From Clostridium sardiniense (lineage in GTDB: Bacteria > Bacillota > Clostridia > Clostridiales > Clostridiaceae), in the NCBI RefSeq assembly GCF_016907995.1, contig NZ_JAFBDA010000002.1, positions 1 through 64,000 of the forward strand: a stretch of DNA of 64,000 bases. The letters run 5' to 3'. The translations under genes and the position numbers were made by a program. Positions 2,607 to 61,907 of this stretch are shown piece after piece (position 1 is the stretch's first letter; each line of letters begins with the position of its first letter). The notes under the pieces are model-generated. The model saw nothing but the letters and a program-made list of their open reading frames with translations, did not search any database and had not been told where the DNA came from.

Positions 2607-3713
2607 ATGAGAAGAATTAATTATGTAGTTTTTGAGGATTTAGTTAAGAGGTATAAAGGTAGCAATAAAAATGTTATAGAAAAATTCAATCTATTCATAG
2701 ACAAGGGTGAATTTATTGTAATTGTAGGTTCTAGCGGAAGTGGCAAATCTACTCTATTAGAAATGATTTGTGGATTTGAAGAAATAACTGAAGGTAGGAT
2801 ATCAATAGATAATAAAATTATAAATGATATAGAACCAAAGGATAGAGATATATCTATGGTATTTCAAAATTATGCATTATTGCCTCATTTAACAGCTTAT
2901 GAGAATATAGCTTTTGGTATGAAAATTAGAAAAGTGAAGAAAGAAGAAATACATAAAAAAGTAATATGGGCAGCTAGGATTTTGCATTTAGAAGAATATT
3001 TAAATGTAAAACCTAAAAAACTATCTGGTGGCCAAAGGCAAAGAATAGCCTTAGCCCGTGCAATTGTCAGGGAACCAAAGTTATTTTTAATGGATGAGCC
3101 ACTTTCAAATTTAGATGCTAAGTTAAGAAATGAAACCTGTAATGAAATAGTTGCACTACATAAAAAGATAAATGCAACAACAATTTACGTTACTCATGAT
3201 CAAACAGAAGCATTAACTATGGCGGATAGAATAGTTGTACTAAATGATGGAAAAGTAGAACAAGTAGGGACACCAAAAGAATTATATACAAATCCAAGTA
3301 GCATATTTGTAGCAACATTTCTTGGTAAACCTCAAATGAATTTGTTTGAGATGAAAATAAAAGAGGAAAGAGTAATATTAAATGATCTTATAGATATAGG
3401 TATATTAGATGAATCTAATATACTAAATAAAGATGAATACATAATTGGGTTTAGAGCTGAAGATATACAAATCAGTGAAGAAGGCAATTGGTCTATAAGA
3501 GCAATAATTGAGAAAATAGAGTATTTAGGAAGTGAAACAATTCTTTATTTAGATTATAAAGGAATAAAATTTACAACTAAAACTTATAAAATAAAAGATT
3601 TTAAATTAAATGAGAATGTTAATATTAGTTTTAATTTACAAAATGCTAATATTTTCAATAAACATAATAAAAGGAATATAAGGGGAGAACAAAATGAAGA
3701 AAAGAATAATTAG
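2607..3713 (+). CDS. ugpC: ABC importer ATPase, UgpC/MalK type
   Basis: Energises a CUT1-type sugar or glycerol-3-phosphate importer. Walker A GSSGSGKST is at 41-49, Q-loop VFQNYALLPH at about 85-94, LSGGQRQR at 139-146, Walker B LFLMDEP at 159-165 and the switch His of VTHDQTEALTMADR at about 197. A MalK-type OB-fold tail follows residue 240. The start is uncertain: GGAG at 2603-2606 abuts the ATG, so initiation may use the ATT codon at 2616 or be weak. It is the first of six same-strand genes; its end overlaps the lipoprotein gene by 20 bases. UgpC is the nearest named type, but the substrate cannot be read from the ATPase. Confidence 0.9.
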   Translation: MRRINYVVFEDLVKRYKGSNKNVIEKFNLFIDKGEFIVIVGSSGSGKSTLLEMICGFEEITEGRISIDNKIINDIEPKDRDISMVFQNYALLPHLTAYENIAFGMKIRKVKKEEIHKKVIWAARILHLEEYLNVKPKKLSGGQRQRIALARAIVREPKLFLMDEPLSNLDAKLRNETCNEIVALHKKINATTIYVTHDQTEALTMADRIVVLNDGKVEQVGTPKELYTNPSSIFVATFLGKPQMNLFEMKIKEERVILNDLIDIGILDESNILNKDEYIIGFRAEDIQISEEGNWSIRAIIEKIEYLGSETILYLDYKGIKFTTKTYKIKDFKLNENVNISFNLQNANIFNKHNKRNIRGEQNEEKNN

Positions 3714-4971
3714 TATGATGATAATGCTACCTCTTTTACTTACAGGGTGCGCAAAAGGGACTTCTTCTGTTGCAGAAGGAGAAATAGGTGGAACTATTAC
3801 AGTAATAACAGATAGAACTGACGCTGATAAATTATTTGAAGAAATGGAAGCTAAGTTTAAAAAATTACATCCTAAAGTAGAAGATATAGTTTTCGAATCA
3901 TCAAGTGATTATGATAATTACATTACAACTCGTATGAATACAAAGAACTATGGAGATGTTTTATTTGTACCATTTAGTATGAATGCAAATCCAAATGAAT
4001 ATGAAAATTATTTTGAACCTTTAGGTAAAGTTGATGAATTAGAAAAGAAGTATATAGATGTTACAGAGGCAGATTTTAATGGAACTGCCTATGGTATACC
4101 AGCAGCTCTTAACTCTTTAGGAATTATATATAATGAAGATGTTCTAAAAAAGGCAGGAGTAGAAAAAATGCCAACTTCATTAGAAGAAATGGTTGAAGCA
4201 TGTGAAAAAATTAAAAAGCATACTGATGCAATTCCATTCTATACAAACTACAATAACACACTTGGAGTCTGGGGAGGATCTTTAACTTCTTATGGTGGAG
4301 AGCAATATAGATCAGAAATGCTTAAAAAGGGAACTGCATTTAAAGAAGGACAACCAATAAGACAAGTTATGGATTTATTCTATACATTATCTTCAAAAGG
4401 TATTACTGAAAAGGATCCAATTACAGGAGACTATGCTAAGTCACAACAAATGCTTGCAGATGGAGAGGTTGCAATGTTTATGATGGGATCACAAGAGATT
4501 CCAGATATTCAGAAGCTTGTTAAGAATGGAAACAAAATAAATATAGCACCATTCCCAGTTAAATTTAATGGACAAACAAGTATACCATTTGGAGCACCAG
4601 CTGTAGTTGGAGTTAATAAAAATAGTGAAAATAAAGAAACTGCAAAAGCTTTCTTAGAGTTCTTAGTGTCTGATGAAAGTGGATATGCAAAAGAATTTGG
4701 TGGAATGTCACCAAATAGAGAAGATTTAAATGAAGAACAACAAAAAATGTTTAAAGAAAATAATATAATATTAACTGTTCCGACAGAAACACCAGAAAAT
4801 GATAAATTATATAGTACTATAGCTAATGAGGTTGGAGTTGGAAGACTTACAGATGTATTACAAAAGACTATAAATATAGGTTTATATCCAAATCAAAATG
4901 AAAGTTATGATGAATATGTCAATAAATTAGAAGATAAATGGGAAAAAGCTATAAAGAATAATGAAAAATAG
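3694..4971 (+). CDS. ABC importer substrate-binding lipoprotein (family 1, UgpB-like)
   Basis: Membrane-anchored extracellular binding protein of the importer. A lipoprotein signal ends in LLLTGC with Cys19 as the lipidation site. The rest resembles family-1 sugar-binding proteins: GTITVITDRTDADKLFEEME, KKLHPKVEDI, a YGIPAALNSLGIIYNEDVLKKAG hinge region (shortened here) and a late KAFLEFLVSDESGYAKEFGG segment. 425 residues is normal. GGGGAG lies 7 bases before the ATG. The nearby phosphodiesterase suggests glycerophosphodiesters or glycerol 3-phosphate, while the downstream prenyltransferase gene raises other possibilities. Ligand unproven. Confidence 0.88.
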   Translation: MKKRIISMMIMLPLLLTGCAKGTSSVAEGEIGGTITVITDRTDADKLFEEMEAKFKKLHPKVEDIVFESSSDYDNYITTRMNTKNYGDVLFVPFSMNANPNEYENYFEPLGKVDELEKKYIDVTEADFNGTAYGIPAALNSLGIIYNEDVLKKAGVEKMPTSLEEMVEACEKIKKHTDAIPFYTNYNNTLGVWGGSLTSYGGEQYRSEMLKKGTAFKEGQPIRQVMDLFYTLSSKGITEKDPITGDYAKSQQMLADGEVAMFMMGSQEIPDIQKLVKNGNKINIAPFPVKFNGQTSIPFGAPAVVGVNKNSENKETAKAFLEFLVSDESGYAKEFGGMSPNREDLNEEQQKMFKENNIILTVPTETPENDKLYSTIANEVGVGRLTDVLQKTINIGLYPNQNESYDEYVNKLEDKWEKAIKNNEK

Positions 4972-5839
4972 TAACCTAAAAAAAGAAAGAAAGATTATTT
5001 TTATCTTTCTTTTTTTTCCAATATTATTATTAATTTTATTTGGATTTTTACCTATAATATCTTTGATTAGTTATAGCTTTACTTCATGGAATGGTTTATC
5101 CACTACAAAAGAATTTGTTGGATTTGATAATTTTATAAAGATACTTACAGATCCTAGCTATATTGAAGTGTTTAAAAATAGCTTATATTATTTTGCATCT
5201 GGTATATTGCAAATTATAATTGGATTAACCTTTGCAATAATATTGTCTTTTAAGGTTAGGTTTAAAGGTTTCTTTAAAGCAGCTTTTGTATTTCCTTGCC
5301 TTATAAGTGGTGTTGCAATATCAATGATGTTTAGAGTTTTTTTCTCACCAGATGGAACATTTGATCAAATATTAACGTCTTTAGGTCTTGCAGATATTAT
5401 TCACTTTTGGCTTGGGGATCCAAGGTTTGTAAATTATACTTTAGCAAGTATATCCTTATGGAGATTTACTGGAATGAGCTTTATTATGTACTTTGGGGCA
5501 ATTCAGTCTATTCCAAAGGAGTACTTAAAGTGTGCTGAAATTGAAGGAGCGTCAATATTCCAAAAAGTTAGATATGTTATATTGCCAAACATACATACAG
5601 TAATTAAGATAAATTTCATTCTTTTAATTGTAGGATCAATTTCTGTATTTGAAATACCTATGATAATGACAAATGGATCTAATGGGACAAGTACCTTTTT
5701 ACTTATGACTATGAAGACAGCCTTTGAAAAGAAGCAGATAGGTCTTGCGGCTAGTATGGCAGTTATAATAACTATTCTAATCGTAGTTATGACTTTAATA
5801 CAAAAGAGGATGTATAGAAATGATGAAGATGAATATTAG
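4961..5839 (+). CDS. ABC importer permease 1, UgpA/MalF type
   Basis: One of two transmembrane subunits. About six hydrophobic helices are visible, starting IIFIFLFFPILLLILFGFLP. The permease coupling loop that touches the ATPase is EYLKCAEIEGASIFQKVRYV near residues 190-205, matching the EAA motif of the MalF/UgpA family, followed by ILPNI. 292 residues is the usual length. The start overlaps the lipoprotein gene by 11 bases, a sign of translational coupling. It pairs with the permease downstream. Confidence 0.88.
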   Translation: MKNSNLKKERKIIFIFLFFPILLLILFGFLPIISLISYSFTSWNGLSTTKEFVGFDNFIKILTDPSYIEVFKNSLYYFASGILQIIIGLTFAIILSFKVRFKGFFKAAFVFPCLISGVAISMMFRVFFSPDGTFDQILTSLGLADIIHFWLGDPRFVNYTLASISLWRFTGMSFIMYFGAIQSIPKEYLKCAEIEGASIFQKVRYVILPNIHTVIKINFILLIVGSISVFEIPMIMTNGSNGTSTFLLMTMKTAFEKKQIGLAASMAVIITILIVVMTLIQKRMYRNDEDEY

Positions 5840-6659
5840 GAAGATAATACTAAAGACAATTAAATATACAGCATTAATTTTATGGTTATTAATTTTGTTT
5901 ATACCTATTATAACTATATTTTTTGGTTCATTTAAAACTTACAATGAGTTTAATAATACAGCTGGAATAGCACCTCCTGAGAGTTTTTTAAATTTATCAA
6001 ATTATAAGGATGCATTTATAAATGGGAAGATGTTAGTAGGATTTTTCAATACCTTTATCCTAATTCTTTTTGGAGTTTTTGGAAGTGTAATAATTGGTTC
6101 TATGGTAGCATTTGCTGTAAATAGATTTAATTTTAGAGGTAAAAAAATAATTTTATTTATGTATTTATTAGTATCCATTGTTCCTATGGAAATATCACAA
6201 GTTGCAACATTTAAGATTATTAATGCAATGGGTATATATAATACACGCCTTGCACCTATAGTTTTATATTTAGGGGCAGATGTACTTATGGTATATATAT
6301 ATCTTCAAATGCTTGAGAAGATTCCAAAGGATATAGATAAAGCGGCAAGACTTGAAGGCGCAAGTTATTTTAAGATATACTGGAAGGTTATTTTTCCATT
6401 GCTTAAACCAGCAACAGCAACAGCATGTATGATAAAAATAATTTCAATTTATAATGATTTTTATATACCATTTTTATATATGCCAGGTGAGGGGTTAAAT
6501 ACAGTATCAACAGCTTTATTTAAGTTTATTGGACCAGCAAGAACAGATTGGCAGATTATATGTGCTGCCATAATAATTAGTATGATACCTATGATTATAT
6601 TCTTTTGTTTTCTTCAAAAGCATATATACGGTGGTATAACGTCAGGGAGTATTAAATGA
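5820..6659 (+). CDS. ABC importer permease 2, UgpE/MalG type
   Basis: Second transmembrane subunit of the importer. Six helices are visible, beginning YTALILWLLILFIPIITIFF, and the EAA coupling loop reads DIDKAARLEGASYFKIYWKV followed by IFPLLKPA, typical of MalG/UgpE proteins. 279 residues is usual. It starts 20 bases inside the preceding gene with AGAGGATG upstream, and its stop overlaps the ATG of the prenyltransferase gene by 4 bases (ATGA). Import and prenyltransferase genes are therefore almost certainly co-translated. Confidence 0.88.
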   Translation: MMKMNIRKIILKTIKYTALILWLLILFIPIITIFFGSFKTYNEFNNTAGIAPPESFLNLSNYKDAFINGKMLVGFFNTFILILFGVFGSVIIGSMVAFAVNRFNFRGKKIILFMYLLVSIVPMEISQVATFKIINAMGIYNTRLAPIVLYLGADVLMVYIYLQMLEKIPKDIDKAARLEGASYFKIYWKVIFPLLKPATATACMIKIISIYNDFYIPFLYMPGEGLNTVSTALFKFIGPARTDWQIICAAIIISMIPMIIFFCFLQKHIYGGITSGSIK

Positions 6660-7588
6660 TGAGAGAAAAAAATTTTTTTAAGAGAGTATATACAGTATTA
6701 GAAGTAAGAACTGGTTTTGCAACTGGACTACCTGTTTTAAGTGGTGGTTTATTTGGAGCTTATCTGGCTGGAAAGTTAGATATAGCTTTATTAGTTCTTA
6801 TGTTTATTTCAGGATTTAGTTTTAACATAGTATCTAATATAGCAAATGAAATAAGAGGATACTTAAAAAGTGAAGAAAGTGAAGAGACACTAACAGGACA
6901 TATAGGAAGCGAAGGTCTTGCTAGAGGTGATGCTAAGCTTAAAGATGCAGTTATTGCACTTATATTTATGACTGCGCTTGGAGGAGCATCAGGACTTCTT
7001 ATAGTATTTATAACTAGAGATTTAAATATATTGCTTATAGGAATTCTTAGTGCATTAGCTGCCATATGTTATTCTTTAGGACCTAAGCCGTATATTCTAT
7101 ATCCAGTAGGAGAGCTTATATCTGGAATTTTTGTTGGATTTATAAGTTGTTTTGTATCTATATATATTCAATTAGGTACAGTAACTGTAGATATAATTCT
7201 ATATTCAGTTATATCAATGATAATGACAGTATTTTTAATGTCTACTAACAATACATCGGATTATAATAAAGATATGGGAAATAGAACAACACTTCCTCAT
7301 GTTATTGGATTTAGAAATTCGATTAAGATAATAATACCAGAGGCTATAGTTATGATATTAGCTTGGATAGGGCTATTCTTTAATGGAAGCATAACACTTA
7401 TTATGTTTATAACTGGTCTTGCTACTTTCTATTATTATGGATATGTTCGTTGGTATAAAGATTATTATAAGATAAAAGAAGTTTATAAAGAGATGGGAAG
7501 AGAATGGGGACCAAGACCATTATTATTAATATATAGCTTTCATATAGTAGTATCTTTAGAATTTTTAATTATGATAATAGCAAAGTAA
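6656..7588 (+). CDS. dmkA: UbiA-superfamily prenyltransferase, MenA/DmkA-like
   Basis: An integral membrane enzyme expected to attach a polyprenyl chain to a quinone-type aromatic acceptor such as 1,4-dihydroxy-2-naphthoate, giving (demethyl)menaquinone. 310 residues with 8-9 helices. The second Asp-rich motif is intact (SDYNKDMGNRTTLP, about 202-215). The first differs from MenA: the usual NDYxD reads NEIRG at 64-68, so the first Asp is Glu and the second is Gly. Together with eetAB, apbE, ndh2 and dmkB in the next 8 kb this is the best candidate for the EET-dedicated DmkA. It is fused by a 4-base overlap to the importer operon, and the next gene begins 12 bases later. Acceptor identity is inferred. 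Confidence 0.8.
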   Translation: MMREKNFFKRVYTVLEVRTGFATGLPVLSGGLFGAYLAGKLDIALLVLMFISGFSFNIVSNIANEIRGYLKSEESEETLTGHIGSEGLARGDAKLKDAVIALIFMTALGGASGLLIVFITRDLNILLIGILSALAAICYSLGPKPYILYPVGELISGIFVGFISCFVSIYIQLGTVTVDIILYSVISMIMTVFLMSTNNTSDYNKDMGNRTTLPHVIGFRNSIKIIIPEAIVMILAWIGLFFNGSITLIMFITGLATFYYYGYVRWYKDYYKIKEVYKEMGREWGPRPLLLIYSFHIVVSLEFLIMIIAK

Positions 7589-7600
7589 GAGGAGATAATT

Positions 7601-8437
7601 ATGAGTATAATTAATATTACTTTAATAAAGAAAAATCCATTATGTATACCTGCAATTATGGCAAGTGAAATGGGGATATTTAAAAAGTATAATATAGAGG
7701 TTAATTTAGAGCTTCCAGATGATTTTGATTTTGGTGGTAAGAATCCATTTCTAGCAGGTGAATCTCATGCTATGATGGGAGATATAACATTCTTTTTCTA
7801 TATGCTTAAAAGAGGAAAGAATGCTGTTATAACATCAAATTTAACTCGTACTATAAGTTTTTTAGTAAGGAAGGATGCCCCTAAAGATTTAAGGGGATTA
7901 AGAGTTGGAGTAAATAGAGCTGGACTTTTTAAATTATTTTTAGAAAATGATTTAAAAAATAAAGTAGAAGATGTAAAAATTACTTGGATTAATAACACAT
8001 ATGAAAGAATTAAAGCAATTGACAATGGAGAAATCGATGCTTTAGTTGCTATAGAACCATTTATAGGAGAACTTGTAGATAAGGGTTATCAAAAGGTATG
8101 GAGCTTAAGAGAAAGTGAAAAAAATTTAGTTATGTGGTGTTTTGAAGAGAAATTCTATAGAGAGAATAAAGAAGCGGTTAAAAGCTTCCATAAAGCTTTA
8201 GAAGAGGCTAAAGTAATATTTAATGAATTTAGTAAAGAAGAGAAGGTAAGGATTGCTATAGACTATGCAGGATATAGTCTAAATGCAGCAAAAAGATTAG
8301 AAGGTTTTACTTTCGAAAAAGGGGAAGTTTATAGGGAAGAAGACTTTAATCTTTGCCAAGAGTGGATGTATAGAGAAGGGGATATTGATAGATTATATAG
8401 TCCTAAAGATTTAATAATTAAAGATACATTTATATAA
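7601..8437 (+). CDS. Cytoplasmic NMT1/THI5-like periplasmic-binding-fold protein
   Basis: Resembles SsuA/NMT1/THI5-type binding proteins: LIKKNPLCIPAIMASEMGIF at the N terminus, FKKYNIEVNLELP, then LRGLRVGVNRAG and IDNGEIDALVAIEPFIGELV. It has no signal peptide, lipobox or membrane segment, so it should stay in the cytoplasm. GAGGAG lies 7 bases before the ATG, and it is the last gene of the importer-prenyltransferase operon. Soluble enzymes with this fold exist (MqnA and MqnD of the futalosine menaquinone pathway, Thi5 in thiamin synthesis), so an enzymatic or carrier role in quinone-precursor handling is a reasonable guess. No catalytic motif of those enzymes is recognisable. Function unknown. 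Confidence 0.75.
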   Translation: MSIINITLIKKNPLCIPAIMASEMGIFKKYNIEVNLELPDDFDFGGKNPFLAGESHAMMGDITFFFYMLKRGKNAVITSNLTRTISFLVRKDAPKDLRGLRVGVNRAGLFKLFLENDLKNKVEDVKITWINNTYERIKAIDNGEIDALVAIEPFIGELVDKGYQKVWSLRESEKNLVMWCFEEKFYRENKEAVKSFHKALEEAKVIFNEFSKEEKVRIAIDYAGYSLNAAKRLEGFTFEKGEVYREEDFNLCQEWMYREGDIDRLYSPKDLIIKDTFI

Positions 8438-8443
8438 AATAAT

Positions 8444-8480
8444 AAGCCAAAAGTAAAATATATATTTTACTTTTGGCTTT
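8444..8480. terminator. Bidirectional terminator between the importer operon and eetB
   Basis: A 17-bp perfect inverted repeat (8444-8460 with 8463-8479) has A-rich and T-rich flanks, serving the convergent units on both strands. Confidence 0.85.
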
Positions 8481-8512: not shown

Positions 8513-9037
8513 TTAATTAGTTCTAAAATAAGGTATCTTTCTTAAGTGTGATAATAAATAATTTGCAGATAAGCCTACAAATATTCCGGTTCCTATACCT
8601 GCTAATGATAGGACAGGTAAATATAAAAACACACCGAAATTTTCTAATATAAGGGATGCTACAAAAAGCTGACCTATATTATGAAATACTGCAGCAGAAG
8701 CGCTAACGCCTATTATTGATACATATTTACTACCAAGTTCCTTAACTAAAACTATAATTGCAAAGCTAAGTAGACCACCAGCTGCACTATATAAAAGTGT
8801 TGATATACTTCCTCCTAACATAGTTGATAAAAGTAGTCTTAAAAGCAACACTAAGAATGAGTCTTTATAGCTATCTAATGTATATACTGATATCATTATT
8901 ACAAGATTTGCAAGTCCAAGTTTGGCACCAGGTGTTATAAATGGTACTGGTATCATACCTTCAAATATGTATAAAATTAGAGCCATAGCAACAAGTAGAG
9001 ACATATAAAGCATTTTTGAAGTTTTGTTAAATCTCAT
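8513..9037 (-). CDS. eetB: Gx transporter family membrane protein (EetB-like)
   Basis: A 174-residue, strongly hydrophobic protein of the Gx transporter family (often annotated heptaprenyl diphosphate synthase component I). About five helices; motif-like stretches are MIPVPFITPGAKLGLANLVI near 30-49 and GASAAVFHNIGQLFVAS-type sequence in the middle. In Listeria the homologue EetB is required with EetA for extracellular electron transfer. It lies 5 bases downstream of eetA on the same strand, so the two are one operon. The transported species, if any, is not established; this part of the call is family knowledge. Confidence 0.85.
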   Translation of the reverse strand: MRFNKTSKMLYMSLLVAMALILYIFEGMIPVPFITPGAKLGLANLVIMISVYTLDSYKDSFLVLLLRLLLSTMLGGSISTLLYSAAGGLLSFAIIVLVKELGSKYVSIIGVSASAAVFHNIGQLFVASLILENFGVFLYLPVLSLAGIGTGIFVGLSANYLLSHLRKIPYFRTN

Positions 9038-9042
9038 AATAT

Positions 9043-9438
9043 CTAATGGGAAAGTATAGTATCAGAATCACTATTACTTTCATCTCCTTTAATTTCTATT
9101 ATTAATTCATTGGGTAAACAAACAATGGTTTGTCCTACCTTGGATATAACTCCTTGCTTAATACAAAGGTCATCCCTGCAATCAGCTTCTATTATTTTAA
9201 TTGTATTATCTTTTATTGAAATAGTGTTGTTTCCATGATTAGTTTTTACTACTAAAGTCTTTTCACCTTTAAAAGATGAAAGTGGAATATTATCATATAC
9301 ATCGCCAGAAATTTTGATGTTAGCATAAGTACTACTGTAGTCTTTAGATAGAGTTTTTGCAAATATCAAATAAGGAACGAATGACAATATAATAAGAAAT
9401 AATATTATAATTATGTCTAATTTCTTGAAGATCTTCAT
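9043..9438 (-). CDS. eetA: NusG domain II-containing membrane-anchored protein (EetA-like)
   Basis: 131 residues with one N-terminal membrane helix (LDIIIILFLIILSFVPYLIF, about 7-26) and an outward NusG-domain-II-like fold: GDVYDNIPLS, VKTNHGNNTISIKDNTIKII, then ADCRDDLCIKQGVISKVGQT and IVCLPNELII. The DCRDDLC..G and CLPN stretches are the family hallmark. It is the first gene of the eetA-eetB operon. In the Listeria system EetA acts with EetB in passing electrons out of the membrane; the exact role is unresolved. It is transcribed divergently from the FMN-binding lipoprotein gene, sharing about 200 bases of upstream DNA. Confidence 0.87.
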   Translation of the reverse strand: MKIFKKLDIIIILFLIILSFVPYLIFAKTLSKDYSSTYANIKISGDVYDNIPLSSFKGEKTLVVKTNHGNNTISIKDNTIKIIEADCRDDLCIKQGVISKVGQTIVCLPNELIIEIKGDESNSDSDTILSH

Positions 9439-9640
9439 TTAACATTTCTCCTAAGTAAATTTAATTGTAGTTTTTTTATTAAAGCTACGATTAGATTTTA
9501 AATTATATAAAAAGAAAGGGGTAATAGAAAAAACTTATACTGTATAAAAAATATATATTAATATAAAATGTCAAAATCGTTGTATAATCCTCTTGGGAAT
9601 AATAAAAAATTAATCTATATATTTTTAGGAGGAAATTTTA

Positions 9641-10117
9641 ATGAAAAAGAAGTTATTAGTAGGATTATGCACAGCTGCATTAGCAATATCACTTGTAGGT
9701 TGTGGTGGAAGTGATGATAAAAAGGCAGAAACACCAGACAAAGGTTCAGAAGTTACAATGAAAGATGGTACTTATGAAGTAGAAACAAAGAATGCTGATG
9801 ATAATGGTGGAAAAGCTAAAGTTGTTCTTACTGTTGCAGATGGAAAAATAACAAAAGCTGCTTACAATGAATTTACTGACAAAGGTAATAAGAGAGAAGA
9901 CAAAGAATATAATGACATGATGAAAGAAAAAGCAGGTACAAATCCAGCGGCATATGAAGTTGAATTAGAAAAGAAAATTGTAGAATCTCAATCAGGAGAT
10001 TTCGATGCAGTAACTGGTGCAACAAGCTCATCAGATAAAGCTAAAGTTTTAGTTAAAGAAGCTATAAACAATGCAAATGAAGGAAAAGCAGAAAAAGAAT
10101 TAATAGAAATTAAATAA
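9641..10117 (+). CDS. pplA: FMN-binding-domain lipoprotein (PplA-like, single domain)
   Basis: A surface lipoprotein predicted to carry covalent FMN and act as the terminal extracellular electron carrier. The signal peptide ends LVGC with Cys21 lipidated; a charged linker follows. The FMN-binding domain begins MKDGTYEVETK (40-50), and the flavinylation motif DAVTGATSSS is at 122-131, with Thr128 the expected FMN attachment site. At 158 residues it carries one domain, whereas Listeria PplA has two. AGGAGG lies 9 bases upstream of the ATG. The next gene but one encodes the FMN transferase that would modify it. A strong terminator follows, so it can be expressed separately and abundantly. Confidence 0.88.
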   Translation: MKKKLLVGLCTAALAISLVGCGGSDDKKAETPDKGSEVTMKDGTYEVETKNADDNGGKAKVVLTVADGKITKAAYNEFTDKGNKREDKEYNDMMKEKAGTNPAAYEVELEKKIVESQSGDFDAVTGATSSSDKAKVLVKEAINNANEGKAEKELIEIK

Positions 10118-10168
10118 TTATAATTTATAAAACAAAATTTAAATTAAAAGATTTATTTAATAAATATA

Positions 10169-10213
10169 AGACTATTAATATAGTAATTTACCATATTAAT
10201 AGTCTTTTTTTTA
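10169..10213 (+). terminator. Terminator after the FMN-binding lipoprotein gene
   Basis: A perfect 13-bp stem (10169-10181 with 10193-10205) is followed by eight or more T. Confidence 0.87.
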
Positions 10214-10415
10214 TTGTTTTAACTTTAAACTAGAAAAAATGTTAATATTTATCAATAGGAGTTTGAGAAAATAGAGCAAATTAAAGAATAATTTGTTGTA
10301 TTTTACCGGAAAAACTTATAAAATATAAAATACATATGAATAATATGAATAAAAAATTAACAATACGATGAATGGAATCAATTGAAATGATTTCTTTTGG
10401 AAGGAGAATACACTT

Positions 10416-11462
10416 ATGGGCAAAAAAGTTATTACTTTTTTTATAACAACTATTTTGATCATTAGTTTAGTAGGATGTACTAAAGAAAAATCGAAAGATA
10501 CTAAATTGAAAGATCCCATTAGTAGAACTGAATTATTTATGGGAACTGCTATAAAGATAACACTTTATGATGTAGGAAGCGAAGAAATATTGGACAAGGC
10601 ATTTAAAAGAGTTATTGATCTAGAGGATTTAGTTAGTATTAATAAGTCCGGAACAGAGATTGTAGAACTTAATAAAAATTCAGGGATAAATCCGGTTAAG
10701 CTTAGTGATGATAGTTTTAATATTATAGAAAAAGGGTTAGAATATTCAAAAGCATCCAAGGGAGGATATGATATTACAATAGGTCCTCTAGTTAAGTTAT
10801 GGAGTATTGGACTTCCGGAAGCAAAGGTTCCAAATGAAAATGAAATAAGAGAAGCTATTAAACATGTTGATTATTCCAAATTAAAAATCAATAAAGATAC
10901 TAATGAGGTATTTTTAAGTGAAAAGGGAATGATGATAGACCTTGGAAGTATTGCAAAAGGATATGCAGCAGATGAAATTGTAAAACTTTTAAAAGAAGAA
11001 GGGGTAACAGAAGCTATTGTTGATTTAGGTGGAAACATATATGCTCTAGGTAAAAAGGAAGGTAATAAAAACTGGAAAATAGGAATCCAAGATCCTAATA
11101 CAGAAAGAGGTAATGTAGTCGGAATGGTTGAGACCTATAATAAATCTGTTGTTACCACTGGGGTTTATGAAAGATTTATAGAAAAAGATGGAGTTAAGTA
11201 TCACCATATTTTAAATCCTAAGATAGGATATCCTTACAAAACTGATATTGCAGGAGTATCTATAATCGCTGATAAATCAATGGATGCAGATGCATTATCA
11301 ACTTTAATATTCACTAAAGGATTAGATGAAGGTATTAAATTTATAGAAACTTTAGATGGGGTAGATGCAATATTTATAATGAATGATAGAAAGGTTTATA
11401 TAACTGAAGGAGTAAGAGAGAGCTTTAAATTAACAAATGAAAGTTTTGAACTTGCAAACTAG
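10416..11462 (+). CDS. apbE: FAD:protein FMN transferase lipoprotein (ApbE/FmnB)
   Basis: Transfers FMN from FAD to a Ser/Thr of flavoproteins outside the membrane; the likely target is Thr128 of the FMN-binding lipoprotein just upstream. The lipoprotein signal ends LVGC (Cys21). Family motifs are FMGTAIKITLYD, IDLGSIAKGYAADE (the conserved AKG), VDLGGNIYALG, VTTGVYERF, YHHILNPKIGYP and the metal/FAD-site ADALST segment. 348 residues is the usual ApbE length. GGAAGGAG is 10 bases before the ATG. It ends 14 bases before a LysR regulator gene, so the two probably share a transcript. Confidence 0.92.
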   Translation: MGKKVITFFITTILIISLVGCTKEKSKDTKLKDPISRTELFMGTAIKITLYDVGSEEILDKAFKRVIDLEDLVSINKSGTEIVELNKNSGINPVKLSDDSFNIIEKGLEYSKASKGGYDITIGPLVKLWSIGLPEAKVPNENEIREAIKHVDYSKLKINKDTNEVFLSEKGMMIDLGSIAKGYAADEIVKLLKEEGVTEAIVDLGGNIYALGKKEGNKNWKIGIQDPNTERGNVVGMVETYNKSVVTTGVYERFIEKDGVKYHHILNPKIGYPYKTDIAGVSIIADKSMDADALSTLIFTKGLDEGIKFIETLDGVDAIFIMNDRKVYITEGVRESFKLTNESFELAN

Positions 11463-11476
11463 AGAGGAGGAAAATT

Positions 11477-12355
11477 ATGCAAATAGATAGTTTGAAATAT
11501 TTTTATGAAGTGGCAGAACTAAAAAGTATATCAAAGGCCGCTAATAATTCACATATATCACAACCAGCTTTAAGTCATCAACTTTCTAAGCTTGAGAAGG
11601 AGCTTGGTGCAAGACTTCTTGAAAGAAGTAATAAAGGAGTTAAACTTACTAGTCAAGGAGAGATACTTTATAATTATGCTAGAGAAATTCTTATATCTCA
11701 CAATAACTTAATTGAAGAGATAAGTGCAAATAATGTTAGTAAAGAAGAAATAGAAATAACTAATTCAAGTATGTATGCTAATTTTTTAGTATCTAATATT
11801 GCTAAAGATATTAGCAAAATATTTAAGAACTTTAATGTGATCATAAACAATCAATTAGAAATTAATGAGCAAGTTTTATTATTACATAATAGATCAGATG
11901 TAGTAGTCGGTTGCAAAATGATATATGATGTTGACCTATCATCAAATTATATAGGAAGTGATAAGTTAATACTTATAAGTAAACAAGAAGTTAAAAAAGA
12001 TAAGTTTGATAAATTATCTATTGCGTTACTAGATGATAATTTAAGTATTCCAAGAAGGGAACTTGAAAAATTAGATAAATCCAATATATGCTTAAAAACA
12101 AATTCAATAGATACGATAAGGGAATATTTAAATAACTCTAATACAGCTGCTATTGTTCCAAGAATATCAGTTCAAGCAGAATTAGAATCAGGAATATTTA
12201 AAGATTTAGAATGTAAAAGTTATGAAATAGAATATGATTTATTTATAACTTATAAAAAAGATATAGAAAACAGTTTGAAAAAGAAGATTAATCTATTCAA
12301 AGATGAATTAGAAAAGATTCTAAACAAAGAGATAGAGAGTAAGGTGAAGTTGTAA
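11477..12355 (+). CDS. LysR-family transcriptional regulator
   Basis: The N-terminal helix-turn-helix is textbook LysR: LKYFYEVAELKSISKAANNS, HISQPALSHQLSKLEKELGA, RLLERSNKGVKLTSQG. A substrate-binding co-inducer domain follows from about residue 90 to 292, more divergent than usual. GAGGAGG precedes the ATG. Its position between apbE and ndh2 suggests it controls the electron-transfer genes, but it shares a transcript with apbE rather than being divergent from a target, so the regulon is a guess. Effector unknown. Confidence 0.88.
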   Translation: MQIDSLKYFYEVAELKSISKAANNSHISQPALSHQLSKLEKELGARLLERSNKGVKLTSQGEILYNYAREILISHNNLIEEISANNVSKEEIEITNSSMYANFLVSNIAKDISKIFKNFNVIINNQLEINEQVLLLHNRSDVVVGCKMIYDVDLSSNYIGSDKLILISKQEVKKDKFDKLSIALLDDNLSIPRRELEKLDKSNICLKTNSIDTIREYLNNSNTAAIVPRISVQAELESGIFKDLECKSYEIEYDLFITYKKDIENSLKKKINLFKDELEKILNKEIESKVKL

Positions 12356-12635
12356 GTATTGAGTATGCCTAATATTTAAAATGTTCATACTTCATAAAGA
12401 AAAGTTATAACAAAATTGAATAAATTAAATTAAGTTATGTATCTAAAGCGCCTAAATATAAGGGGTTATAAAGTTTCGTTAAAATGAAACGTTATTCATA
12501 AATTATATTTATTTAGTAATAAAACATGCTAGACAGTTATAGTTATTAAATATAGAATAGACATGCAAAACAACTTTTGAGATTATTTTAACAAAAGAAT
12601 ATTGGTTAATAATTAAAATGAAATGAGGGAATTAT

Positions 12636-14561
12636 ATGTCTACGAAAATTGTTATTTTAGGCGCTGGTTATGCAGGTGTACATGCAGCCAAAAAGTTAGC
12701 AAAAAAGTATAAAAAGAATAAAGAGGTAGAGATTACTTTAATTGATAAGAATCCTTACCATACTTTAATGACAGAATTACATGAAGTTGCAGGGGGGAGA
12801 GTTCCAGAAGAGTCTGTAAAGGTAGAACTTTCTAGAATATTCCACAGAACCAAAGTAAATGTTGTTGTTGACTACATAGAAAATGTAGATGAAAATAAAA
12901 ATATAGTAAAGACAAAACAAGGTGAGTATCAGTATGATTATCTAATGATAGGAACAGGAAGTGAACCGGCATTCTTTGGAGTACCGGGAGTAAAGGAAAA
13001 TGGATTTACTCTATGGTCACTAGAAGATGCCATTAGAATAAAAGCTCATATAAAAGATAGAGTTAAAGAAGCTTCTTATGAAAGAAATGCTGAAAAGAGA
13101 AAGAGAATGCTTACTTTTGTAGTTGCAGGATCAGGATTTACTGGAATAGAAATGGCTGGAGAACTATTAGAATGGAAAGAGACATTAGCAAGAGAGTATA
13201 GAGTTGATGTTAAGGAAATTAAGATATTAGTAGTTGAAGCAATGTCTACTATACTTAATATGTTAGATAGGAAACAAGCTGATAAAGCTGAAAAATACAT
13301 GGTCAAGCATGGAGTAGAAATCTTAAAGGATTCTCCAATTGTAGAAGTTACTAAAAACACTATAAAATTAAAGAGTGGAAAAGTAATTCCTACAGAAACT
13401 TTAATTTGGACTTGTGGAGTTCAAGCTAATCAAGATTTAGATCAAATTGAGATTAAAAAAATTAAAGCTGGAAGATATGCTGCTAACAAATATATGCAAG
13501 CAGAAGGAAAAGAAAATATATTTGTAGTTGGTGACATTGCATATGTAGAAGAAACACCAGGGAATGGTAATCCGCAAATAGTTGAAGCGGCAGAACAAAC
13601 AGCAGTAACAGCTGTTAAAAATATAGTAGCTTCAATGGAAAATAAAGAAAAAGTAGAATTTAAGTCAAATTACCACGGATTTATGGTATCTATAGGTGGA
13701 AGATATGCTGTAGCTAATTTAATGGGAATGAAATTATCAGGTTTCTTTGCTATGGTAATGAAACATCTTATAAATATGGTATATCTATTTAGTGTTAATA
13801 ATGTTCACGCAGTATATAATTATCTTCAACATGAATTCTTCGCTATGAAAGAAAGAAGATGTATAATGAGAGGACACTTATCATCTAAGGGAAATAGATT
13901 ATGGTTAGTTCCTTTAAGAGTTTATATAGGTTTCCTTTGGTTAATTGAAGGGCTTAAGAAATTAATTGGTGAAGAAACTTGGACTAAAGCTTTTGATTCA
14001 GCTTCTAGCGCATCAGATGCAGCTGGTGGAAGCATAACAGCTTATTTTGATAGTTTAAGCAGCAACTTAACAGTTGGTTGGGATAGCTGGATGAAGATGG
14101 GGAATGTTAAGATGCCATTTTCATGGCTTCAAGATACAGTCTCAGGAGCATCACAAGCAGCTGAAGGTACAGCAACAAATATGCCAACACCTATATTTGA
14201 AAGTATGCCAAAGTTCTATGAATCAATAATGGAAATATTTATGCCAAATGCTGAAATTGCAGTTTGGTTCCAAAGAATAGTTGTTTTAACTGAAATAGCT
14301 ATAGGGTTATGCTTAATTGTAGGATTGTTTACATTCTTAGCTTCAGCAGCATCTGCATTTATGACAGTTAACTTTATATTCTCAGCAATGGCTGGGTGGG
14401 ATATATTATGGTTCACATTTGGTAGTATCGCATTAATGGCTGGAGCTGGAAGAACTTTTGGATTAGATTACTATGTAATGCCTTGGATCAACAAACTTGT
14501 AGGTAACTTCTGGATGGGAAAGAGAGAACCTATCTATGATATACATGGTGGAAATAAGTAA
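12636..14561 (+). CDS. ndh2: Type II NADH dehydrogenase with C-terminal membrane domain (Ndh2 of EET)
   Basis: Oxidises NADH and passes electrons to membrane quinone without pumping protons. The FAD-binding GAGYAGVHAAKKL is at 9-21, the NADH-binding GSGFTGIEMAGEL at 165-177, and the second FAD motif IFVVGDIAYVEE at about 295-306. Unlike ordinary 400-residue NDH-2, it continues to 641 residues with a DoxX-like membrane domain: helices near 423-440, 543-566, 568-585 and 588-605. This two-part form is the Ndh2 dedicated to extracellular electron transfer in Listeria. The normally conserved AQxxxQ quinone-site motif reads EAAEQTAVTA. It has its own upstream region and terminator, and is followed by dmkB. 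Confidence 0.9.
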   Translation: MSTKIVILGAGYAGVHAAKKLAKKYKKNKEVEITLIDKNPYHTLMTELHEVAGGRVPEESVKVELSRIFHRTKVNVVVDYIENVDENKNIVKTKQGEYQYDYLMIGTGSEPAFFGVPGVKENGFTLWSLEDAIRIKAHIKDRVKEASYERNAEKRKRMLTFVVAGSGFTGIEMAGELLEWKETLAREYRVDVKEIKILVVEAMSTILNMLDRKQADKAEKYMVKHGVEILKDSPIVEVTKNTIKLKSGKVIPTETLIWTCGVQANQDLDQIEIKKIKAGRYAANKYMQAEGKENIFVVGDIAYVEETPGNGNPQIVEAAEQTAVTAVKNIVASMENKEKVEFKSNYHGFMVSIGGRYAVANLMGMKLSGFFAMVMKHLINMVYLFSVNNVHAVYNYLQHEFFAMKERRCIMRGHLSSKGNRLWLVPLRVYIGFLWLIEGLKKLIGEETWTKAFDSASSASDAAGGSITAYFDSLSSNLTVGWDSWMKMGNVKMPFSWLQDTVSGASQAAEGTATNMPTPIFESMPKFYESIMEIFMPNAEIAVWFQRIVVLTEIAIGLCLIVGLFTFLASAASAFMTVNFIFSAMAGWDILWFTFGSIALMAGAGRTFGLDYYVMPWINKLVGNFWMGKREPIYDIHGGNK

Positions 14562-14574
14562 AACAATTTAAATA

Positions 14575-14602
14575 AAAAAGCAGGAATATATTCCTGCTTT
14601 TT
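14575..14602 (+). terminator. Terminator after ndh2
   Basis: A 12-bp perfect stem AAAGCAGGAATA with its complement is followed by TTTTT. Confidence 0.8.
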
Positions 14603-14650
14603 AATTCAATAAAATTATAAGTCATTTGGAGATGAAACGAGGGGATAAAC

Positions 14651-15619
14651 ATGAGTAAGTTTTGGAGCAATTATCCTATAATTGATAGAGAAATTGAAGA
14701 GGTTAAAAAACAAATTAGCAAAAATGCTAAATGTAAAGATAAAATTATAGAAAAAAGTATATTAGAGTTATTGAATTCTGGTGGTAAGATGTTAAGACCT
14801 GCTTTTACAGTTATAGCTTCAAAATTTGGAGATTATAATGAAGAGAGAGTTATTGCGCTGGCATCAGTAATAGAAATGTTTCATATGGCCACATTAGTTC
14901 ATGACGATGTTATTGACGATGCGGAGTTAAGACGTGGAAAAGAGACAGTTCAAGCAAAGTATGGTAAAAACTATGCCGTATACATAGGTGATTATCTTTT
15001 CTGTTTATGTTTTAGAATATTAGCTACAACTTCATCAATAGAAAGAGGCGTGGATATTGATACAAAGGTAATGTCTAGGATATGTATGGGAGAAGTTGAA
15101 CAATTAAGCTCAAGGTTTAATAAAGATGTATCAATTAAGGATTATTTAAAAAGAATATCAGGTAAGACAGCAGAGTTATTTTCATTAAGTTTATATATAG
15201 GTGCTGCAGAAAGCTCATGTGATAAAAAAACCTGTAGATTGTTTTGGGAGATAGGTCATAATATAGGTATGGCATTCCAAATAATAGATGATATATTAGA
15301 TTATGTAGGAACAGACGAAGATATAGGTAAAAAGTCTGGAAATGACATAAAGGATGGTATATATACTCTTCCATTACTATTAGCTATGAAGAATAATAAA
15401 GAAGTATTTGATAAAATATTAAAAGAAGATAATTATACTGATGAAGAGGCTAGAAATATAATAGAAAAAGTCAAAGAAAATAATGGGGTAGAAGAATCTA
15501 TTAAACTTGCAGAAAAGTATTCTGAAAAATCTTTTAAATATATAAATAAATTACCTGATAATGAATATAAAGATATACTTTTAGAAGTAACGAAAAAACT
15601 GCTTAAAAGAAAATATTAA
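14651..15619 (+). CDS. dmkB: Polyprenyl diphosphate synthase (DmkB-like)
   Basis: Condenses isopentenyl diphosphate into a long allylic chain, the side chain for demethylmenaquinone. The family motifs are complete: GGKMLRPAF, first Asp-rich motif LVHDDVIDDAELRRG (about 83-97), and second QIIDDILDYVG (about 211-221), with GNDIKDGIYTLPLL after it. 322 residues matches heptaprenyl-type synthases. The start is supported by GAGGGG 8 bases upstream. Placement after ndh2 with dmkA, eetAB and apbE nearby makes the quinone-supply role for electron transfer likely; chain length cannot be read safely. Confidence 0.88.
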   Translation: MSKFWSNYPIIDREIEEVKKQISKNAKCKDKIIEKSILELLNSGGKMLRPAFTVIASKFGDYNEERVIALASVIEMFHMATLVHDDVIDDAELRRGKETVQAKYGKNYAVYIGDYLFCLCFRILATTSSIERGVDIDTKVMSRICMGEVEQLSSRFNKDVSIKDYLKRISGKTAELFSLSLYIGAAESSCDKKTCRLFWEIGHNIGMAFQIIDDILDYVGTDEDIGKKSGNDIKDGIYTLPLLLAMKNNKEVFDKILKEDNYTDEEARNIIEKVKENNGVEESIKLAEKYSEKSFKYINKLPDNEYKDILLEVTKKLLKRKY

Positions 15620-16292: not shown

Positions 16293-17352
16293 GATACATG
16301 TTGCAATAGGTATACTTAAACCATTTATTTGGGGATTTGCTATAGCATATATACTAGATTTTGTTTTAAGGTTTTATGAAAATAAAGTGTTAGAATTTTC
16401 ATTTTTTAAAAATTTTTTTAAAAAATTTAATATTAGATCAAAAAGGGGACTTGGATTATTATTTACATATATAACTGCTTTTATAGTTGTTGGATTGTTT
16501 ATTCAATTTGTACTACCACAGCTGATTAATAGTATAGTTGGTTTAGTTAATGATATACCATCATACATATCTAATACTAGTAAGTTTATTAATGATATAG
16601 TAAATAAATTAGATATTCAAGAACACTATTTAGTAATAATAAATGATAAGTTTAACGGTCTTATTGATTATGTAATTAAGGCATCAGCAAACTTAATTCC
16701 TATGCTTGGAGGAATACTTACAGTTATTTTATCAAGTATCTGGAATATAGTATTAGGGATAATAGTTTCTATATATCTTCTAATAGAAAAAGAGAAGTTT
16801 TTTGGCCTAAGCAAGAAAATGACTTATGGAATATTTCCTATGAAGGCGGCTGAAAAGATATTAGAGTTAACACATAGAAGTAACGATACTTTTGGAAAGT
16901 TTTTAAGTGGAAAAATATTAGATTCACTTATAATTGGAGTATTAACTTTTGTTATTTTAACAATAGTCAAGATGCCATATACTCTTTTAATATCTGTAAT
17001 TATAGGTATAACCAATATAATACCATTCTTTGGACCGTTTATTGGTGCAATACCATCAATTATAATAGTTCTATTTGTTTCACCAATTAAAGCAGTATGG
17101 CTTGCAATAATTATTTTAATAATACAACAAATTGATGGAAATATTATAGGACCTAAAATACTTGGAGATTCCATTGGAATATCCGCTTTTTGGATATTAT
17201 TCTCAATACTAGTTGCAGGTAAATTCTTAGGATTAGTTGGAATGGTTATAGGGGTTCCATTATTTGCAATTGTATATTCTATAATTAAAGAGATTGTAGA
17301 GGATAGGCTGAAGAAAAAAGGAATGAAAGTTCGTACAAAGGATTATATGTAA
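16285..17352 (+). CDS. AI-2E family transporter (YtvI/PerM-like), main part
   Basis: A multi-pass membrane protein of the AI-2E exporter superfamily; members move varied solutes and few have proven substrates. Typical features are KPFIWGFAIAYILDF at the N terminus, the central amphipathic region (about 70-130), the ILELTHRSNDTFGKFLSGKI segment and the late GITNIIPFFGPFIGAIPS motif, with eight or so helices. 355 residues here, but a first helix is encoded upstream in another frame, and no ribosome-binding site precedes ATG 16285. The gene is therefore probably broken or misread at one base. Confidence 0.8.
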   Translation: MNKIHVAIGILKPFIWGFAIAYILDFVLRFYENKVLEFSFFKNFFKKFNIRSKRGLGLLFTYITAFIVVGLFIQFVLPQLINSIVGLVNDIPSYISNTSKFINDIVNKLDIQEHYLVIINDKFNGLIDYVIKASANLIPMLGGILTVILSSIWNIVLGIIVSIYLLIEKEKFFGLSKKMTYGIFPMKAAEKILELTHRSNDTFGKFLSGKILDSLIIGVLTFVILTIVKMPYTLLISVIIGITNIIPFFGPFIGAIPSIIIVLFVSPIKAVWLAIIILIIQQIDGNIIGPKILGDSIGISAFWILFSILVAGKFLGLVGMVIGVPLFAIVYSIIKEIVEDRLKKKGMKVRTKDYM

Positions 17353-17361
17353 AAATTAAAG

Positions 17362-17388
17362 GTCATTACAATATTGTAGTGACTTTTT
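17362..17388 (+). terminator. Terminator after the AI-2E transporter gene
   Basis: GTCATTACA pairs with TGTAGTGAC (one T-G pair), followed by TTTTT. Confidence 0.7.
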
Positions 17389-17625
17389 AATTTGTATTTT
17401 GTGAGTATATCTTTATTATATATAAATTGAGAAAAGTGTATCAGATATTGATGAGAATAATATAATGCATACAGTAAATATGCATATAGTATACGTGAGA
17501 AAACAAATTTAAAATAGATAAGAATATACAGTTTTAATTAAATACACTTGAATTATAAATATTTACAATTAAGATAATATATGATATATTGTGATGAGAA
17601 TATAAGCAGTAAGGAGTGGTATTAG
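17389..17625. other. Intergenic DNA before the 24-codon gene
   Basis: AT-rich sequence between a terminator and a small gene. Scattered TATA-like hexamers exist but no paired -35/-10 that I trust, and no other recognisable element. Confidence 0.4.
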
Positions 17626-17700
17626 ATGAAAAAAAATTTAGTGAAATCAGATAATGGAAATAGAAAAAAATATACTGCTCTAGAATATTATACTGTTTAA
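17626..17700 (+). CDS. Putative 24-residue small protein
   Basis: Begins MKKNLVKSDNGNRKKYTALE and ends YYTV. AAGGAGTGG lies about 8 bases upstream of the ATG and a hairpin terminator follows 30 bases after the stop, so it looks like an independent expressed unit. Basic N-terminal half, aromatic C terminus, no membrane helix. No family recognised; it might be a leader or signalling peptide, but that is a guess. Confidence 0.5.
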   Translation: MKKNLVKSDNGNRKKYTALEYYTV

Positions 17701-17944
17701 GATGAAAAATTTTAATTAAGAGAGTATTATACCTCGGGCAGGAAAAAATTCTATGCTAAGGTATTTTTTTATACTTAAATTTAATATTTTAATAAGAATT
17801 ATATTTAATTTATTTAAATAATCGTTAAGTAAAAAAAGATAATCATTTTGGGAATAATAAAATATAAATGTTATTATCTGTAGAATACAAGTGAGTATTT
17901 AAATTAATTTTATAAAATGAAACAATAGGAGGAGATGAGGATTA
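17701..17944. other. Intergenic DNA upstream of the ABC exporter pair
   Basis: Holds the small unit's terminator (17730-17770) and then about 170 AT-rich bases that must contain the exporter promoter. GGAGGAGATGAGG precedes the exporter ATG. No inverted repeat obvious enough to call an operator. Confidence 0.4.
17730..17770 (+). terminator. Hairpin terminator after the 24-codon gene
   Basis: TACCT pairs with AGGTA around an inner GCA/TGC pairing, followed by seven T. Confidence 0.65.
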
Positions 17945-32826: not shown

Positions 32827-32861
32827 TAAATTAAGTGAATAAAAGAAATCCACTAAGTGGT

Positions 32862-32896
32862 AGAGGTTCGAGACCATCCCTCTATAAAAAACTAGG
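32862..32896 (+). promoter_or_regulatory. preQ1-I riboswitch aptamer
   Basis: The sequence AGAGGTTCGAGACCATCCCT followed by CTATAAAAAACTAGG matches the compact class I preQ1 aptamer: P1 AGAGG/CCTCT, the C before CCTCT that pairs with preQ1, the A-rich ATAAAAAAC loop and a pseudoknot strand CTAG. The pseudoknot is G-C, A-U, a G/A mismatch and C-G, a little different from B. subtilis. Terminator hairpins follow directly, implying transcriptional OFF control by preQ1 (or a related 7-deazaguanine). Confidence 0.85.
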
Positions 32897-32912
32897 CAAA
32901 CATGACTTTTAT

Positions 32913-32945
32913 AGGTTGCACGGTCTTTTCGTGCAACCTTTTTTA
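32913..32945 (+). terminator. Riboswitch terminator, first of a tandem pair
   Basis: AGGTTGCACG pairs with CGTGCAACCT around GTCTTTT, followed by TTTTTT. It starts 16 bases after the aptamer and is the likely expression platform. Confidence 0.85.
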
Positions 32946-32955
32946 GTTTTATTTT

Positions 32956-32988
32956 AATGCCTTGAGATAGTCTCAAGGCATTTTTTTT
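32956..32988 (+). terminator. Second tandem terminator in the queuosine leader
   Basis: AATGCCTTGAGA pairs with TCTCAAGGCATT (loop TAG), followed by eight T. It lies between the first terminator and the gene, so both must be bypassed for expression. Confidence 0.85.
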
Positions 32989-33020
32989 GTTCAATTAATT
33001 ATATAAAAGGAGAGTTTTTT

Positions 33021-34001: not shown

Positions 34002-34057
34002 TAGTTTAAATGATAGATGAAATAAGATATATGTAGTAAGAAAGAGAGAGATAAGAA

Positions 34058-42350: not shown

Positions 42351-42536
42351 TTGTATCACCTCGATAAAGATAATATTTGTTATATATAAATTAATATGTA
42401 TTATAGGTATGATATAAATAAATATTATGTAGATTTATAAACTTAATAATCTAGAGAATAATTTAATAAATTTATTCATATATTAATCAAATTACTATGA
42501 TAGAATAAAAAAAAGTCTAAAGATGGAGAATTGAAC

Positions 42537-45291: not shown

Positions 45292-45303
45292 ATGGAGGAT
45301 AGT

Positions 45304-45528
45304 ATGTGTGTTGCAATACCTGGACGAGTCATTGAATTATATAAAGATGAAGCTTTAGTGGAGTTTATAGGTAGCAAAAAGATAGTAAACACGTCTTTAA
45401 TTAAGAATGTTAAGATTGGCGATTACTTGCTTATACATGTAGGTATAGCTATAGAGAAAATAGATAAAGATGAAGGCAGAAAGACAATTGATATTTTTAA
45501 AAGTATGATTTCAAAGTTAGAGGAGTAA
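45304..45528 (+). CDS. hypC: Hydrogenase maturation chaperone HypC
   Basis: 74 residues beginning MCVAIPGRVIELYKDEALVE, with the essential N-terminal Cys2 and the conserved LLIHVGIAIEKIDKDE. HypC carries the Fe(CN)2CO unit with HypD to the hydrogenase large subunit. ATG 45304 chosen because GGAGGA lies just upstream, in the same string as the preceding stop. One base separates its stop from hypD. Confidence 0.94.
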   Translation: MCVAIPGRVIELYKDEALVEFIGSKKIVNTSLIKNVKIGDYLLIHVGIAIEKIDKDEGRKTIDIFKSMISKLEE

Positions 45529-45529
45529 T

Positions 45530-46606: not shown

Positions 46607-46627
46607 TTTAAAAATAAAGGAGAGAAG

Positions 46628-61879: not shown

Positions 61880-61907
61880 ATTTTAAAATATTTTGGAGTG
61901 ATAAAGT

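Follow-up and report, generated by a model that had tools for sequence, protein, structure and literature searches.

We analyzed the first 64,000 nucleotides of a Clostridium sardiniense contig (NCBI RefSeq assembly GCF_016907995.1, NZ_JAFBDA010000002.1; hereafter the window) and describe in it a six-gene unit (2607-8437, forward strand) in which an ATP-binding cassette (ABC) importer of the CUT1 type is coupled to a UbiA-superfamily protein and to a leaderless NMT1-like protein, here called X. On balance, we favor a reading in which the unit imports and prenylates a precursor of a quinone head group and would thereby feed Ndh2 and flavin-based extracellular electron transfer (FLEET) in bacteria unable to make such a precursor. 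This reading starts from direct observations: the gene content of the unit, its kept order in distant genomes, its co-occurrence with an Ndh2-type dehydrogenase, the lack of matches to the head-group enzymes searched for, and the presence of a single UbiA in the window's genome.

Some gut and food bacteria rely on quinones or on 1,4-dihydroxy-2-naphthoate (DHNA) from their neighbors (PMC5738691, PMC10746273). In the accessible parts of the respective papers, import genes were expected to be present and still to be annotated in 2016 (PMC4746308), transporters for menaquinone or DHNA were undescribed in 2017 (PMC5738691), and uptake pathways were expected, yet unidentified, in 2023 (PMC10746273). 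Within the accessible text of the openly licensed literature, we found no description of a DHNA or quinone importer. The unit reported here holds up as real and conserved, with no earlier description in what was searched, and is a strong candidate for this predicted but missing function: a conserved importer-prenyltransferase unit, which in the window's genome adjoins an electron transfer locus and is accompanied by none of the men/mqn genes searched for, provides a concrete and testable candidate for the missing uptake system.

Organization of the Unit

All six open reading frames of the first-pass annotation were confirmed at their positions, and recomputation returned the same junctions, in order overlaps of 20, 11, 20 and 4 bases and a gap of 12. 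The importer, which that annotation had called CUT1-type, is matched in all its parts in Pfam and NCBIfam: a MalK/UgpC-like ATPase with a TOBE/OB domain (2607-3713), a lipoprotein solute-binding protein (SBP; 3694-4971) matching SBP_bac_8/SBP_bac_1 in Pfam and showing an LLTGC lipobox by eye, and two BPD_transp_1 permeases, A (4961-5839) and B (5820-6659), all on the forward strand and followed there by UbiA (6656-7588) and X (7601-8437). As judged by eye, Shine-Dalgarno-like stretches precede the starts of the SBP, permease B, UbiA and X; that of permease A is weak, and in front of the ATPase a GGAG directly abuts the ATG. A scan for terminator-like hairpins, with 5 sites found versus 2.1 expected, placed one on the forward strand at 2294-2328, dividing the upstream glycerophosphodiesterase gene (1489-2217) from the unit, and one on the reverse strand only at 8444-8479, between X and a convergent eetB-like gene. 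The unit is likely transcribed as one.

Conservation in Distant Genomes and Different Surroundings

Of 194 family genomes sampled, 10, including the window's, encode X orthologues with 49-60% identity (remaining matches fall to 18-31%), and the unit is present in all 10, in one of them (G167) without UbiA. A scan of species genomes yielded 19 loci, of which 9 coincide with family genomes and 10 are new (Romboutsia, Faecalimicrobium, Clostridium sp. CCUG 7971, Cellulosilyticum, Niameybacter, Turicibacter and four Vagococcus), giving with the window 20 distinct module genomes; the genera looked up span Clostridia, Erysipelotrichia and Bacilli. The order SBP-permease-permease-UbiA-X is kept in 18 of these 20 genomes, in 15 with the ATPase and in three Vagococcus loci without it, the only such losses among the 19 loci with a visible importer end. 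The two exceptions are G167, which lacks UbiA only, and a locus cut by a contig end (L074), which starts inside UbiA and leaves the importer out of view; the draft contig of L076 carries several importer frames that are short. Conservation of the gene order in relatives, put forward with the first-pass annotation as a check, thus reaches well past close relatives. With its order retained in remote genomes and amid different surroundings, the unit is beyond chance.

These surroundings comprise FLEET-like genes at 6 of 20 loci (the window's own, L032, L034, L040, L074 and L076) and germination-like genes in L033 and L035-L038, four of these five with a trpS-like gene on the opposite side; the other loci have yet other neighbors (all names by eye), and in L077 the contig ends just past X. 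Between UbiA and X, 3 of 18 intact loci have 512-734 bases, and tight coupling is therefore not universal. The pairwise identities found for X are correlated with those for UbiA, the SBP and permease A, and these with each other (Spearman 0.78-0.88, 18 genomes), as vertical descent alone would also produce. The unit appears to have been inherited and moved as a whole.

The UbiA Protein

By Pfam and NCBIfam profiles and by alignment, the UbiA protein falls into a divergent, MenA-like subfamily. Its best models are those of DHNA polyprenyltransferase, which it matches at 101 bits versus a cut-off of 289, remaining under every curated NCBIfam cut-off for MenA/DmkA enzymes; 11 standard DHNA prenyltransferases of relatives reach 307-394 on the same model. 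All 18 aligned members of the subfamily match DHNA polyprenyltransferase models only (E 1e-5). UbiA-type prenyltransferases typically carry a first motif NDxxD (NDxxDxxxD), and the corresponding position reads NNYxD in DmkA-type relatives and is degenerate in the unit's protein. The second motif, DxxxD, is present and resembles that of MenA, with D202 and D206 invariant in 18/18, and K71, E73, H82 and GSEGL are invariant past motif I. Because the change in motif I is itself conserved among members, the alignment identifies a distinct subfamily rather than a decaying one, which may or may not be catalytic; prenylation of DHNA is a candidate activity.

The single genome where the unit lacks UbiA bears on what the remaining genes do. 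In G167 (L037, 9253-9432), importer and X are intact with no UbiA gene in the gap that separates X from permease B, this gap gave only chance-level matches when searched for a UbiA remnant, and a DHNA prenyltransferase over cut-off is encoded elsewhere in the genome. Since importer and X are kept with UbiA gone and an enzyme available elsewhere, this suggests that they deliver something that a standard DHNA prenyltransferase can use.

Protein X and Its Relatives

X is a protein of 278 residues with no signal peptide. In 19 of 20 genomes there is room for at most 13 additional residues before its start (55 in G167), which is below the usual signal peptide size and argues that X is not exported; we presume it to be cytosolic. 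Its Pfam match is to the NMT1/THI5-like family at 31 bits, and among 10 orthologues at E 0.01, NMT1 is reached by 3 and NMT1_2 by 8. Invariant motifs such as GDxTFFFY run throughout all 20 X sequences. Matches to solved structures were marginal and chance-like, PF02621 (the MqnA/MqnD family) was unmatched by X, and a plasmid search with X returned none.

Within the family, the nearest non-orthologous relatives of X have longer frames (310-336 aa), and the starts that were read resemble those of lipoproteins. We fetched 20 of them, as one best match per genome from 20 genomes (three second matches in the score range were left out, and one locus, L024, comes from the genome that supplied the query genes), and 14 lie within 1.5 kb of UbiX, MqnP-like UbiA, U32, aminotransferase or ApbE genes. 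Loci L091-L098 combine an ABC importer with NMT1 binding protein, UbiD and an MqnP-like UbiA in 8/8, with UbiX in 7/8, U32 and class III aminotransferase in 7/8, and EetA and EetB in 6/8; in L091, where the UbiA is MqnP-like, UbiD exceeds the cut-off for menaquinone decarboxylase. Genomes of this cluster type have UbiD in 10/10 and PF02621 in 1/10; both loci and genomes were picked for a top-matching NMT1 binding protein or for proximity to Ndh2, and the counts are thus not unbiased rates. This second quinone cluster with an importer of its own appears to work for an electron chain of the same kind, and it therefore supports the idea that head groups are imported. As an observation in its own right, the set of U32, class III aminotransferase, menaquinone-type UbiD, MqnP-like UbiA, UbiX and SsuABC-type importer genes (L091, 1900-16776, and L092-L098; not all genes everywhere) might constitute a partial futalosine-type route fed by import.

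The Adjoining FLEET-Like Locus

A FLEET-like locus, overlooked in the first-pass annotation, lies directly downstream of the unit (8513-15619). FLEET loci are defined by Ndh2, EetA (NusG_II), EetB (Hpre_diP_synt_I), a polyprenyl synthase, an FMN-binding protein and ApbE together, and all six are found in the window. The EetB-like (8513-9037, Hpre_diP_synt_I) and EetA-like (9043-9438, NusG_II) proteins, assigned with Pfam and NCBIfam, are encoded on the reverse strand; on the forward strand, profile matches identify a PplA-like protein with an FMN-binding domain (9641-10117), an ApbE-family flavin transferase (10416-11462), a LysR-type regulator (11477-12355), an Ndh2-type dehydrogenase (12636-14561; Pyr_redox_2) with a DoxX-like C terminus, and a polyprenyl diphosphate synthase (14651-15619), HepT-like but under the HepT model cut-off, that likely supplies the prenyl donor. 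The standard DmkA DHNA prenyltransferase that is usual in FLEET has no counterpart in the window's genome, where the sole UbiA match is the unit's own (101 of 289 bits). In L032, L034, L074 and L076, a DmkA-like gene sits between the LysR and Ndh2 genes, where the window has a 280-base gap instead; the genes of L032 and of L074 (the latter also contained in L113) pass the NCBIfam DHNA prenyltransferase cut-off. Farther along the window (59192-60235), we note an FMN_dh-family protein, by eye similar to type 2 isopentenyl diphosphate isomerase and possibly relevant to prenyl supply.

Ndh2 and Quinone-Pathway Genes in Module Genomes

An Ndh2-type dehydrogenase is encoded in 19 of the 20 module genomes: in 10/10 family genomes with the unit versus 56/184 without it (Fisher 1.3e-5, uncorrected for relatedness), and in 9 of the 10 further ones, five of them at 46-55% identity. 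The completeness of genomes G194-G203 is unstated, and G199 and G203 are metagenome-assembled genomes (MAGs) of 1.8 Mb and 2.2 Mb. Four Ndh2 genomes (G000, G174, G119 and G199) encode no MenA-like UbiA besides that of the unit, the other UbiA of G119 being a decaprenyl-phosphate phosphoribosyltransferase.

The first-pass annotation had also supposed a strain without men genes. In the window's genome, MenD, PF02621 and UbiD are unmatched and the best MenB-like protein scores 162.8 bits versus a cut-off of 342.7; MenF, MenC, MenE, MenH, MqnB, MqnC and MqnE were not searched, and the supposition holds for the families covered. Across the 10 family module genomes, neither MenB nor MenD passes its cut-off (0/10) and UbiD is unmatched (0/10). 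MenB-like proteins under the cut-off occur in all 10 and in 5 of the 10 further genomes, and UbiD in 2 of 20, both among the further ones. MenD matches in 7 of the 10 family module genomes, all under cut-off, were set aside; in the three loci read by eye (L064, L065 and L070), the gene is an IlvB-like member of an ilv/leu cluster. PF02621 is matched in 3/10 family and 4/10 further module genomes; the hits collected from 3/10 and 5/21 genomes score 23.9-41.3 bits, 7 of 8 over the Pfam cut-off, and with frames of 327-341 aa are taken, by this length, as exported binding proteins.

Proposed Mechanism and Points Against It

In the mechanism that we propose, the SBP lipoprotein would capture a soluble precursor, either a naphthoate resembling DHNA or such a compound conjugated to a sugar or another group, and the ATPase with its two permeases would bring it into the cell. 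X, a binding-protein fold retained inside, would hold, deliver or convert it, and the membrane-embedded UbiA would join it to polyprenyl diphosphate from the synthase at 14651-15619, yielding a demethylmenaquinone-like quinone for Ndh2 and the neighboring FLEET-like electron chain. Substrate, role of X, UbiA catalysis and product are all parts that we infer. Because the SBP is of a sugar type and the FLEET-like locus of G018 (L104) has a DmkA-like gene without the unit, we speculate that the substrate could be a conjugate unable to diffuse into the cell, for which these are hints. We further consider it possible, if a little short of probable, that this is the first import system identified for the precursor of a quinone head group: a salvage unit, portable and self-contained, where ABC importer, intracellular binding-fold protein and divergent prenyltransferase pass the precursor from outside to the membrane, accompanied in related Clostridiaceae by a second, independently built importer-prenyltransferase cluster for the same kind of chain.

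The first-pass suggestion that the importer scavenges a precursor for the prenyltransferase is partly supported and gains from the conserved order, from the lack of any sign of the men/mqn families searched, from the adjoining FLEET-like locus with Ndh2 and polyprenyl synthase, and from Ndh2 in 19/20. In G018, FLEET-like genes occur together with a DmkA-like gene and no unit, and the importer is therefore not needed by every such system. Other observations also weigh against import and prenylation of a quinone precursor. Motif I of UbiA reads NExR(A/G) in 17/18, and the protein is perhaps no normal prenyltransferase. The solved relatives of the SBP bind sugars, and 6 of the 20 X relatives, including one of two tied best, have none of the listed quinone-related or ApbE genes within 1.5 kb. 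No Ndh2 match was found in G203 (the 2.2-Mb MAG), MenB is over its cut-off in 1 of 20 module genomes (G195, Vagococcus fluvialis), and PF02621 is over the Pfam cut-off in 3/10 family and 3/10 further ones. Finally, 10 module genomes (G166, G167, G182, G188, G189, G190, G200, G202, G194 and G196) have a DHNA prenyltransferase over an NCBIfam cut-off and G169, G195, G197 and G201 have look-alikes, and the unit's UbiA would therefore be redundant in these 14.

Alternative Readings

Two alternatives are, in our estimate, unlikely though worth weighing, and they are about equally so. In one, X is an enzyme akin to MqnA/MqnD, which are binding-protein-fold enzymes, or to THI5, and converts the imported compound to the head group, making the unit a new short quinone route; its intracellular location and invariant motifs would suit such a role, but X shows no recognisable catalytic motif of known enzymes and the PF02621 match is missing. 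In the other, a sugar or oligosaccharide is what the importer brings in, and UbiA and X make a different prenylated molecule, such as a lipid-linked sugar or a glycerolipid. The CUT1 type of the importer, the similarity of its SBP to mannotriose and maltodextrin binders (the nearest solved chains are BlMnBP1 mannotriose binders), the UgpC-like ATPase and the degenerate motif I of UbiA are all compatible with this, but the exclusive matches of all 18 UbiA members to DHNA prenyltransferase models, the presence of Ndh2 in 19/20 genomes, in four of which the unit provides the only MenA-like UbiA, and the lack, on inspection by eye, of any recognisable glycoside hydrolase next to the unit in the listed loci argue against it.

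We regard salvage of a thiamine precursor, with X of the THI5/ThiY type and UbiA as a passenger, as improbable: the 31-bit NMT1/THI5-like match of X points that way, but its orthologues reach NMT1 (3/10) and NMT1_2 (8/10), families wider than THI5, no TPP riboswitch reached the gathering threshold in the window or in 7/7 relatives' loci scanned, and we know of no tie between UbiA and thiamine. That a glycerol-phosphate importer merely happens to precede a prenyltransferase in one strain, as the glycerophosphodiesterase gene upstream might suggest, is hardly credible, being contradicted by the conserved order across three classes. Glycerol-phosphate import together with the phosphodiesterase was itself rejected on three observations: the importer stays under the cut-offs of the Ugp models (UgpC 426.6 of 432 bits, UgpA 74 of 335, UgpE 70 of 297, and no UgpB model among the three matches of the SBP), the phosphodiesterase has no match in the other 19 module loci (E 1e-15; L038, L074, L076 and L081 hold less than 1 kb of upstream DNA or none), and the terminator-like hairpin stands between.

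Other Features of the Window and of Module Loci

Elsewhere in the window, a PreQ1 riboswitch lies upstream of genes for a nucleoside hydrolase and the S component of an energy-coupling factor (ECF) transporter (32857-34618), a set resembling queuosine salvage; in Niameybacter (L083, 1739-3344), a similar-looking pair is found by eye ahead of the module. A PTP-like phytase-family phosphatase has a signal-peptide-like start (41448-42359), and HypF is followed by HypD- and HypE-like genes (by eye) for hydrogenase maturation (43015-47635). A SCIFF-type radical SAM peptide maturase is over the TIGR03974 cut-off, yet scores higher with the not_ScfB exception model, and is followed by a peptidase-like gene (by eye; 60524-63119 for the two). 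In Vagococcus fluvialis bH819 (L088, ~17285-19394), a regularly repeated peptide in six-frame open reading frames is reminiscent of a CRISPR array.

Comparison with Known Systems

Like the CUT1 importers MalEFGK and UgpABCE, the importer of the unit consists of one lipoprotein SBP, two permeases and one MalK-type ATPase; unlike them, it is tied by kept gene order to a prenyltransferase and X, with no catabolic enzyme recognised beside it. The UbiA protein shares with MenA/DmkA its only profile matches (E 1e-5) and a similar motif II, and departs from them in its score and first Asp motif. X is leaderless and NMT1-matching, as are the binding-fold enzymes THI5/NMT1 and MqnA/MqnD, but it differs from these in lacking a PF02621 match and a recognisable THI5 active-site motif. 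The MqnP-UbiD-UbiX cluster of Clostridiaceae FLEET-like loci similarly sets a quinone-type prenyltransferase and an ABC importer, with a binding protein distantly related to X, beside Ndh2, but relies on a different, SsuABC-type importer, an exported binding protein, a UbiD/UbiX decarboxylase, a U32 protein and an aminotransferase. Finally, the locus downstream of the unit has the Ndh2, EetA-like, EetB-like, polyprenyl synthase, FMN-binding and ApbE components of the FLEET systems of Listeria and Lactiplantibacillus, to which no importer is known to belong; in place of their standard DmkA, the window encodes the unit's importer together with its divergent UbiA and X.

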